Shown here one piece after another: positions 19,976 through 58,557 of a stretch of DNA of 64,000 nucleotides. The stretch covers positions 69,921,297 through 69,985,296 of the forward strand of contig NC_084836.1 in assembly GCF_033115175.1 (NCBI RefSeq), written 5' to 3'. Numbering within the stretch: position 1 is the first letter of the stretch; every line of letters starts with the position of its first letter. Under the pieces are notes generated by a model that saw only the letters and a program-made list of their open reading frames with translations, was not told the origin of the DNA and searched no databases. The translations under genes were made by a program, and so were the position numbers. Source of the DNA: Lepus europaeus. Taxonomy: Eukaryota; Chordata; Mammalia; Lagomorpha; Leporidae.

Positions 19976-20488
19976 TTCTGGGACTTTTTTTCTTTGGACA
20001 CACATCTGACAATCCAGGTCTCCCTCACAAGTGGCAGGGACTCAAATATTCGAGTCATTGCTCTTTGGGGGAAACTTTGCTCTGTTTCTCATTCAGCCAT
20101 TCTGTAAATTCCATTAAATGTCTGTCTTTTATCTGTTTCTTTATGAATCTTTCAATAAACAAAAGGTAGAAAAGAGGAACAAGAACACAAGAGAGAAAAA
20201 TGAAAGCACCAAGCATACCAAAAGTCAAGGGAAGTTTGGGCTTACATTATATGTCATCCTGAAGTTGTGAATGAGAATTAAGGTCATGGCTGTGTTCATA
20301 TCCTTAACTCTAGAAGTAGAAGTTCTAGATTATTGTAGAAAAGCAGTCATTCTTTTAAAAACAGAAAAATGTTTTCTGATCAATCTTCAACCAATAGTTA
20401 TCTGTTAGTCTAAATTCTTTAAGCACAGAGTATAGCACAGAAGGATAAATGCAATCTCATTGTTTTGTTTTGTGTTTTTTTCTCCCAG
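19976..20488. other. intron 3 end with a SINE remnant
   Basis: 20005-20085 resembles a decayed reverse SINE ('ccaggtctccctcacaagtgg', 'ggactcaaatattcgagtc'). The rest up to the exon 4 acceptor is unremarkable AT-rich DNA, with a T-rich polypyrimidine tract at 20470-20486. Confidence 0.5.
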
Positions 20489-26621: not shown

Positions 26622-26627
26622 TTTGTC
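26622..26627. repeat. left 6-bp target duplication of ERV-like element
   Basis: 'tttgtc' directly before the TGTTGCAG terminus at 26628, repeated at 27949-27954 directly after the CTGCAACA terminus. Confidence 0.85.
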
Positions 26628-27052
26628 TGTTGCAGTTGATTTCTCAACAATGTTGCAGTGGATTCGTTTCTGAGAGGAGGAGCGTGGTGGGGGCCAGAGG
26701 CGCAGAGTCAACACACAGACCCTGGGAGTCGGGTGAAAGCGGGCTTGAGGCAAGCAGCCCGCAGACTCGTTTATTTCAGTTGGTACAACATCTTATATAG
26801 CCAAGACCAGCCAATCCAGTCAAGGGGCGGTCTATGCCCCAACCAATCACAGCCTGTTGCCAGGCAGTTTCAAAACCATCCAATCACAGCCTGTTGTCAG
26901 GCAGGCTCCATTGCCAGGTGGGATTCAAAGCCATCCAATCACAGCCTGTTGCCAGGCAGGCTCCATTGCCAGGTGGGATTCAAAGCCGTTCCTGAGTAAC
27001 TGACGCTTGCTTGCCAGCGGCCACTTTGGCATGGCCTTCTCATTTCACCACA
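26628..27052 (-). mobile_element. complete LTR (3' LTR), minus
   Basis: 425 bp on the minus strand from TGTGGTGAAATG (27052) to CTGCAACA (26628), starting TG and ending CA as LTRs do. U3 carries repeated 'ccaatcacagcctgttgcc' units (CCAAT-box repeats) and a TATA box (TATATAAG, plus 26792-26799 reversed). It is preceded on its own strand by a polypurine tract at 27053-27066. Confidence 0.88.
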
Positions 27053-27066
27053 TTTCCCCCTTTTCG
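27053..27066 (-). other. retroviral polypurine tract
   Basis: The minus strand reads AAAAGGGGGAAA immediately 5' of the LTR's TGTGG start, the expected position of the plus-strand primer tract. Confidence 0.8.
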
Positions 27067-27410
27067 TTTATTTTTGAGCAACGGGAGGCATGATTCTTGG
27101 CCATACCATTGTTGACCCCATTCCCATGTGGTCTCCGTACGCAGCTGTGCCTGTCTTAGGTTGTCCCCCAGGGGATCTTACCCGTCATTGACTAACCAGC
27201 ACTCAAATCGAGAGACCACAGGATTGCTTGCTCAAATAGGGGTAGGAATGAGGAATAATGTTATCAGGAATGGCATGTCCGCGCACAGGCTGTGGGCCTT
27301 TTGAGTGGCTGACCAGTGCTAGTGGGGTACAAAATAGTAACAGATATGGCTATGGGCAGTTTCTCAGGGTAGGATGATAGGGCAGGTGCATCGGCTAACA
27401 AGGCGGAGTC

Positions 27411-27597
27411 TCAGTCTTGTTCAGCTGGTTCTGGTTGGCTGTCAGTTGCAGGCTTGATGTTTCTGGCTGGTACCCAGATGGGCTGTCCCACATTCTCTGG
27501 AAAGACACAAGCATATCCTCGACCTTTGGTTAGCAGAGGGTGTGGTCTTTCCATTCTCCTGTCAGGGGGTCTTTCCACCTAACCAAAGGGGCTGGGG
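27411..27597 (-). pseudogene. ERV pol remnant, integrase C-terminus
   Basis: The minus strand encodes a piece with the integrase C-terminal pattern (W-K-D-x-L-T-G-E-W near its start, then G-R-G-Y-A-C-V-F-P), broken by a frameshift/stop near 27530-27545 and ending at a stop at 27411-27413. No gag, protease, RT or env is present. The pattern fits class II (betaretrovirus/IAP-like) elements. Its upstream end is fused directly to the U3 of the plus-oriented LTR. Confidence 0.75.
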
Positions 27598-27948
27598 CCT
27601 GCCTGGCAATGGAGCCTGCCTGGCAACAGGCTGTGATTGGATGGATTTGAAACTGCCTGGCAACAGGCTGTGATTGGATGGATTTGAAACCCACAAGGCA
27701 AACGGAAACTGCCTGGCAACAGGCTGTGATTGGTTGGGACATAGACCGCCCTTTGACCGGATTGGCTGGTCTTGGCTATATAAGATGTTGTATCAACTGA
27801 GATAAATGAGTCTGCGGGCTGCTTGCCTCAAGCCCGCTTTCACCCAACTCCCAGGGTCTGTGTGGTGACTCCGCACCTCTGGCCCCCACCACGCTCCTCC
27901 TCTCAGGAAGGAATCCACTGCAACATTGTTGAGAAATCAACTGCAACA
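27598..27948 (+). mobile_element. 5'-truncated LTR, plus
   Basis: Reverse complement of the left LTR over about 350 bp: CCAAT-repeat U3, TATATAAG at 27777-27784, R/U5 and the CTGCAACA end. About 75 bp of U3 start is missing. The U3 repeat copy number and order differ from the left LTR. Confidence 0.85.
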
Positions 27949-27954
27949 TTTGTC
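27949..27954. repeat. right 6-bp target duplication of ERV-like element
   Basis: 'tttgtc', matching 26622-26627. Confidence 0.85.
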
Positions 27955-51556: not shown

Positions 51557-51793
51557 ATGCCAAACAAGAAACGCAAAAACCGAGGTAACAAGAACAAGGA
51601 AGACACTATGACGCCCCCAAATGAAAAAGACACCCCAATTCAAGATTATGAAGATGATGAAATAGAAGAAATGCAAGAAGCGGATCTCAAAAAATTGATA
51701 AGAACATTAAGAAGTTCTCAAAAACAAATTCTTAAACTACAGAAATCCTTAATGGACAAGATAGAAAATCTCTCTGTGAAAATGAAATATTAA
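51557..51793 (+). pseudogene. L1 ORF1 N-terminal part
   Basis: MPNKKRKNRGNKNKED... start of L1 ORF1p (basic N-terminus and start of the coiled coil). The frame is lost near 51776, where the homologous L1 at 63990 has 'ctctctcatgaaa' and this copy has 'ctctctgtgaaa' (net loss of one base), leading to a stop at 51791. Confidence 0.88.
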
Positions 51794-52734
51794 GGAGGAA
51801 TCAAAATGAAATGAAACAACTAGTGGAACAAGAAACTGTGATAGTGATGAGAAATCATAATGAAATGAAGAATTCAATAGATCAAATGACAAACACATTA
51901 GAGAGCCTTAAAAACAGAATGGGTGAAGCAGAAGAGAGAATATCAGACTTAGAAGACAGAGAACAGGAAAGGAAACAATCAAATCAAAGAAAAGAAGAAG
52001 AAATCAGAAATCTAAAAAATACTGTCAGGAACCTACAGGATACTATTAAAAAACCCAACATTCAGGTTCTAGGAGTTCCTGAAGGCATGGAGAGGGAGAA
52101 AGGATTAGAAGGCCTTTTCAGTGAGATACTAGCAGAAAATTTCCCAGGTTTGGAGAAGGACAGAGGCATCTTAGTACAGGAAGCTTATAGAACCCCTAAT
52201 AAACATGACCAAAAGAGATCCTCACCACGACATGTTGTAATCAAACTCACCACAGTGAAACATAAAGAAAAGATCCTAAAATGTGCAAGAGATAAACGTC
52301 AGATTACTCTTAGAGGATCTCCAATTAGACTCACAGAAGACTTCTCATCAGAAACCCTACAAGCTAGAAGGGAATGGCAAGACATAGCCCGGGTACTAAG
52401 AGAGAAAAACTGCCAGCCCAGAATATTATATCCTGCAAAGCTCTCATTTGTGAATGAAGGTGAAATTAAGACTTTTCATAGCAAACAGAAACTGAAAGAA
52501 TTTGTTGCCACTCGTCCTGCCCTGCAAAAGATGCTTAAAGATGTGTTACACACAGAAACACAGAAACACAGAAACATGGTCACCAATATGAAAGAAGGTA
52601 AAGGAAGGAAACCTCACAGCAAAAGATCACAGGAAGCTCAATTTCTCTTTGACATAGAATTAAACTCTGATGCTCTGTTAAAGCAATGTGTTAAAGTAAT
52701 CTATTATGTTCTCTTGATGTCTGTTAAATTCTAA
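51790..52734 (+). pseudogene. L1 ORF1 remainder (coiled coil, RRM, CTD)
   Basis: Continues ORF1p in the shifted frame: coiled coil (ERISDLEDREQE), RRM-like core (IQVLGVPEGMERE), then the C-terminal domain (RDKRQITLRGSPIRLTEDFS, ILYPAKLSFV). It reaches a stop at 52732-52734 after an atypical 50-residue tail. ORF1p is the L1 RNA-binding chaperone. Confidence 0.88.

Positions 52735-57038: not shown

Positions 57039-58557
<1,519 letters not shown>

Follow-up and report, generated by a model that had tools for sequence, protein, structure and literature searches.

How can a single retroviral insertion meet host DNA with the same viral end on both of its sides? The question is raised by an endogenous element of the hare Lepus europaeus, located in a 64,000-nucleotide stretch of contig NC_084836.1 that was analyzed at its full length and is referred to here as the window. 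In the one assembly that we used, the insert comprises 1,321 bp (26628–27948) and is flanked on both sides by TTTGTC. Read along the minus strand, an inverted partial LTR leads into an integrase C-terminus, followed by a stop, 346 bp, a polypurine tract, and a full LTR; the element has neither gag nor pro nor any other part of pol. The features, in window coordinates, are as follows.

26622–26627, no strand: left copy of the target-site duplication, TTTGTC, from the sequence and the 6-bp rule of the family
26628–27052, minus strand: left arm, a full LTR of 425 bp, whose U5 end (26628) meets host DNA and whose U3 starts at 27052
27053–27064, minus strand: polypurine tract AAAAGGGGGAAA, directly upstream of the left LTR on its own strand
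27065–27410, minus strand: 346 bp without coding signs, from the pol stop to the polypurine tract
27411–27601, minus strand: integrase C-terminal remnant in two frames, from Pfam and PDB matches, with its stop at 27411–27413
27601–27602, no strand: head-to-head joint of integrase (antisense) and U3 (sense), from the limits of homology in other copies
27602–27948, plus strand: right arm of 347 bp, U3 (first part missing)-R-U5, whose U5 end meets host DNA
27949–27954, no strand: right copy of the target-site duplication, TTTGTC, from the sequence

The left LTR has the termini TGTGG...CTGCAACA and is a true 3′ LTR, because the polypurine tract stands directly upstream of it; a tract of like kind precedes the LTR in three relatives (L006, L060, and L063). 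Since the tips of U3 (TGTGGTG) and of U5 (reverse complement, TGTTGCAG) are clearly unlike, both outer ends of the insert are U5, and the final 38 nt of the left and right arms are identical. The initial annotation had described two U5 outer ends with TTTGTC duplicated outside both, and the distinct tips, the shared 38 nt, and the matching flanks bear this out. Its limits for the left arm (26628–27052) also stand, whereas the start that it gave for the right arm, 27598, moves to 27602, where homology begins. Neither outer end carries a PBS, as would be expected of U5 ends defined by tRNA in the minus-strand origin proposed below. The element departs from a standard provirus in that both host joints are U5 and the LTRs are inverted instead of direct. 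It agrees with same-end (U3–U3 or U5–U5) integration in that a single target duplication encloses the same viral end twice.

Four pieces of the locus served as queries against the hare's own genome (2.93 Gb, 649 contigs): left LTR, internal piece, right arm, and joint. The best 40 candidates were scored for each. Both ends were found for 49 LTRs, and a simple rule classed 39 as solo, a class that includes one probable 3′ LTR, L030, which has a polypurine tract ahead of it. With the rows of the window itself (L001, L009, and L061), L039, L040, and four duplicate rows left out of the count, an exact 6-bp flank duplication was present in 27 of the 39 solo-class LTRs, and six more showed one mismatch. 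In the same 39, a single flank pair matched at 3 bp, no pair matched at 4, 5, 7, or 8 bp, and permuted flank pairs matched in 0 of 1,482 cases. The 6-bp duplication is therefore a mark of the family and points to one integrase event at this locus. Within the window, TTTGTC has a per-site frequency of 3.3e-4; the self-match of 6-mers averages 4.4e-4. Judged by its flanks, the insertion is a single integrase event enclosing two U5 ends. Inversion of a normal provirus after insertion was considered and rejected, in line with what had been claimed from the letters: its breakpoint would have to coincide exactly with the duplication, and even then it would not yield the two PBS-less U5 ends that the duplication encloses.

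The integrase remnant places the element in a retroviral class. The piece matches PF00552 (E 9.8e-10, Pfam), and its top PDB matches are 5d7u, “Pr160” (E 3.7e-10), and 3jca, “Integrase” (E 6.1e-10), both of which we take to be MMTV. The frame changes inside the remnant, and the upstream piece, in the other frame, matches the same PDB entries with a best E of 0.002. By these matches, the remnant is of betaretroviral type and comprises a C-terminal piece only; the initial call of a minus-strand integrase-end remnant is upheld, and its extent is corrected to 27601. Within 27065–27410, a 48-aa open piece had no match in a Pfam search. Scans for exact patterns in viral contigs and in bacterial and archaeal genomes yielded nothing, and neither did a phage search, Rfam at the gathering threshold, or a protein search using the integrase piece. 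A lysine tRNA PBS is missing from the window element by virtue of its structure; a stretch carried by relatives reads as a PBS plus the complement of what is presumably tRNA-Lys. TTTGTC stands twice beside LTRs of a family that carries 6-bp duplications, as in class II elements, and the target-site duplication of MMTV is 6 bp according to passages of a published study (PMC3790719). On the remnant and the duplication, we read the element as a defective class II, betaretrovirus-like endogenous retrovirus.

The insertion has a genic setting. A plus-strand open reading frame at 20449–26526 matches the FAM186A families PF20869, PF20870, and PF20865 (Pfam), and this FAM186A-like large exon contains 72-bp tandem repeats, with 22 PQQAQ-repeat stretches by Pfam. 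The C-terminal family match breaks off at the end of the frame (profile 2–67 of 229), where the sequence is CAG/GTAGAT, which would put the insertion inside the next intron. We infer that it sits in a FAM186A intron, ~105 bp past the probable splice donor. Farther along the window are an L1 ORF1 remnant (51736–52734, plus strand; PF02994 and PF17490) and, by Pfam, a copy of an RRM protein (57457–58552, minus strand) that resembles a processed pseudogene, presumably of hnRNP A.

If one integrase event brought in both arms, their kinship bears on where the integrated molecule came from. Alignment of the LTR arms, as the initial annotation had suggested, gave 85.5% identity with gaps and 95.1% over the ungapped 244 bp on the U5 side (12 of 244 positions differ), a K2P divergence of 0.051. 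CpG is involved in six of the 12 differences in these last 244 bp, and the differences fit old neutral decay, as expected; we claim no date. The U3 regions are arrays of ~37- and 55-bp units, spaced 55-37 in the left arm versus 37-56 in the right arm. Array order was compared in 80 distinct LTR copies, a sample picked for resemblance to the arms and the internal piece rather than a census, with the left pattern in 28 copies and the right pattern in two (L062 and L063). A long final unit like that of the right arm is present in 25 of the 80, L062 and L063 included. Both the array counts and those for R-U5 leave out the window's own rows (L001, L009, and L061) along with L019 and L026, which are the loci of L039 and L040; the array count also drops repeated identical rows (from 88 to 80), and L091–L095 are outside all counts. 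Among the best 40 matches scored, L063 is 92% identical to the right arm over all 347 nt, at equal length, and it stands behind its own polypurine tract. Because both array orders exist in other copies, the arms probably came from two parental viral genomes and were not copies of one template.

The R-U5 portions are closer to one another. They differ at 12 of 244 positions, and the nearest relative of the right arm is the left arm (the next nearest shows 14 differences), while the nearest relative of the left arm shows nine. One U5 state (G) is common to both arms and absent from the 88 other rows. Related parents or a shared template could account for this closeness, as could gene conversion that later acted between the arms. 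Changes private to one arm number nine versus three, which is not significant (p 0.15). Trees built from the last 244 bp, which have weak support, neither establish nor reject a sister relationship of the arms; in one tree, both fall inside a single eight-row group but are not sisters.

The internal joint was queried separately (27470–27720), with the best 40 of 1,923 candidates in the own genome scored. The query matches itself at 453 bits, and the other 39 scored matches reach at most 214 bits, ending at query position 131–132 in 38 cases and at 140 in one. The integrase part is therefore homologous up to 27601, with U3 from 27602 onward. A second joint-bearing copy would be expected to outrank the other 39 scored matches, and none of them crosses the joint, so no recurrent family is seen among the best 40 of 1,923; the suggestion that this might be a recurrent non-autonomous family is not borne out within that scope. 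One site close to the joint is G in the window and A in the 31 other loci where the stretch was found. CCTG occurs twice in tandem at the joint, which has no clear microhomology and may be either blunt with one substitution or a 4-base CCTG repeat.

Relatives elsewhere in the genome provide examples of related rearrangements. L039 (C43:116529000–116538900) and L040 (C10:112635000–112644800) are insertions inside the duplications TACATA and ATAGTG, respectively, and each carries, behind its 5′ LTR, a leader and an LTR inverted head to head, plus a copy of the 5′ host flank that is also inverted (590 bp at 99.5% identity in L039 and 43 bp at 100% in L040). Reverse transcription does not explain these host-flank inversions, which could be of later origin or a product of assembly. 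In L039, the 5′ LTR runs into an apparent complement of a whole tRNA, again taken to be tRNA-Lys, joined to the inverted leader. The joint between the two has a ~5-nt overlap and is crossed by six of 40 scored matches, L039 included; the other 34 start at query position 72–73. It stands beside an LTR in L039 and at five further loci, L091–L095 (C9:7536850, C9:63242460, C2:8746190, C22:51051030, and C17:1665050), beyond which the sequences differ. On the near side of the loci that was read, the joint leads in L091 and L095 into inverted U3, an inverted polypurine tract, and internal region, and in L092 into inverted U5 and then sequence that is pol-like by eye. Such joints look like plus-strand strong-stop DNA that had copied its primer in full before switching to the leader. 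Their recurrence at L091–L095 points to a repeated reverse-transcription error at the ~5-nt overlap or to an inherited variant. The presence of inverted composites with a copied tRNA primer in relatives favors an error of reverse transcription for the window element as well.

Truncations close to the LTR end also occur in the family, given that the 5′ LTRs of L011 and L036 are cut to about 3–5 and 25 bases of U3, with pol directly after and intact duplications (AATAGC and AATACC). L026/L040 was considered as a second U5-out pair and rejected, its outer ends being U3 and U5 within the duplication ATAGTG. Among the loci read, there were no independent LTR pairs in opposite orientation, and L019/L039 and L026/L040 each lie inside one duplication.

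The probable origin, in our judgment, is a U5–U5 cDNA formed from two minus strands, joined during reverse transcription, and integrated once in the FAM186A intron. Each strand of the element may be read as beginning U5′-R′-U3′, like a tRNA-primed minus strand. One such strand would have run 974 nt into integrase and the other 347 nt into U3, their templates having been two RNAs, packaged together, whose U3 arrays differed. Aberrant annealing or template switching would then have joined the strands at their 3′ ends, giving a molecule that would need no plus-strand transfer and whose two U5 ends integrase could have used as if they were U3 plus U5. The anatomy, the duplication, and the arrays are read directly, whereas we infer the co-packaging, the reverse-transcription step, and the joining before integration. 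Several observations weigh against this origin. The R-U5 kinship of the arms fits a common template or gene conversion, the joint is without clear microhomology and is seen in one assembly only, and there are only two copies with an array like that of the right arm, in a sample chosen by similarity. In addition, L091–L095 are known from one side, and reverse transcription does not account for the inversion of host flanks in L039 and L040.

The order of the last two steps could have been reversed. Two cDNAs of one particle would each have given a U5 end to a single integrase complex, and the halves of the chromosome would then have been end-joined with loss of most of both cDNAs; we consider this possible but distinctly less likely than joining first. 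The end product would be the same, with two parental genomes and a near-blunt joint. Passages of a study of MMTV integrase describe in vitro concerted reactions that join two separate U5 DNAs and, with a precleaved U5 substrate, a preference for concerted over half-site integration (PMC3790719), so either order of joining and integrating is possible. Integration of two cDNAs requires a germ cell to have repaired a chromosome break, however, and inverted composites of the reverse-transcription type recur in the family, so that a break is unnecessary. Were it correct, the insertion would be a germline record of intermolecular integration, with cDNAs of two co-packaged genomes whose tails were joined in the chromosome, a reading that we hold as a minority view. 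From one locus, joining beforehand and two-cDNA integration are indistinguishable. The initial inference that the DNA was rearranged before insertion is accordingly likely, but two cDNAs joined afterwards would look alike.

Self-copying, in which a single minus strand would have folded back on itself with its own LTR as template and made the arms identical at birth, is improbable. The R-U5 portions of the arms are nearest kin and share a state absent from the 88 other rows, and the involvement of CpG in half of the 12 differences over the last 244 bp is also in keeping with self-copying. The U3 array orders differ, however, and both are known in independent copies, so any later change must have recreated a known order. 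Less likely still is the fusion, by a later deletion, of two independent insertions in opposite orientation. The different U3 types of the arms would suit such a fusion, but the match of TTTGTC would then be a chance event (~4e-4 for the flanks). A rough expectation from 4,853 first-look candidates, which are not verified LTRs, is 0.009 to 0.044 U5-out pairs with matching flanks within 10–50 kb, before any fusing deletion. We regard an assembly error that inverted the right LTR as very remote: there is a single assembly and the LTR family is abundant (4,853 first-look candidates), but a misjoin is unlikely to put a matching 6-bp duplication beyond an inverted LTR, and the element is short (1.3 kb). 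Autointegration, which the initial annotation had offered as an example and in which integrase attaches one LTR terminus to an interior position of its own cDNA, is barely credible. In its favor, it is known to yield nicked inverted and subgenomic circles (passages of PMC2644782). Circles lack a free U5 pair, however, and an integrase-made joint is expected at an LTR terminus, whereas here it lies 79 nt inside U3.

The locus indicates that, in the germline of an animal, two U5 ends can serve a betaretrovirus-like integrase that makes its normal 6-bp cut, and the different U3 arrays offer a natural mark of two parental genomes. Together with the family's other inverted composites, it poses a testable question: how often do head-to-head cDNAs integrate, and are U3–U3 and U5–U5 fossils equally frequent? 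Our literature search, with most subscription journals outside its scope, found no natural U5–U5 provirus; we do not claim absence from print.

Known systems resemble the hare element in part. The autointegration circles of HIV-1, as described in passages of PMC2644782, likewise contain inverted viral DNA, but these products are circles, and the joint here is away from any LTR terminus. Retrotransposons of the DIRS-1 type have inverted terminal LTRs, as here, but use a tyrosine recombinase (passages of PMC5633606), in contrast to the integrase remnant, the 6-bp duplication, and a joint without a second copy among the scored matches. For complex LTR retrotransposons of Triticeae that arose by template switching, Sabot and Schulman 2007 (PMC1950507) use the flanking duplication, much as we do, to argue that the composite preceded a single integration; those composites have three LTRs, with two elements sharing one, unlike the hare element. 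Another likeness is a Moloney MLV provirus that, by the title of Colicelli and Goff 1988 (J Virol 62:633-636, cited in PMC5778647), has inverted LTRs and two U3 ends, so that each host joint involves one and the same end of the virus. That case concerns a gammaretrovirus and two U3 ends, whereas the hare locus is a betaretrovirus-like germline fossil with two U5 ends and signs of two parents. Same-end integration has therefore already been reported in its U3–U3 form, and the U5–U5 form is a new variation on it, of a rarely described kind.
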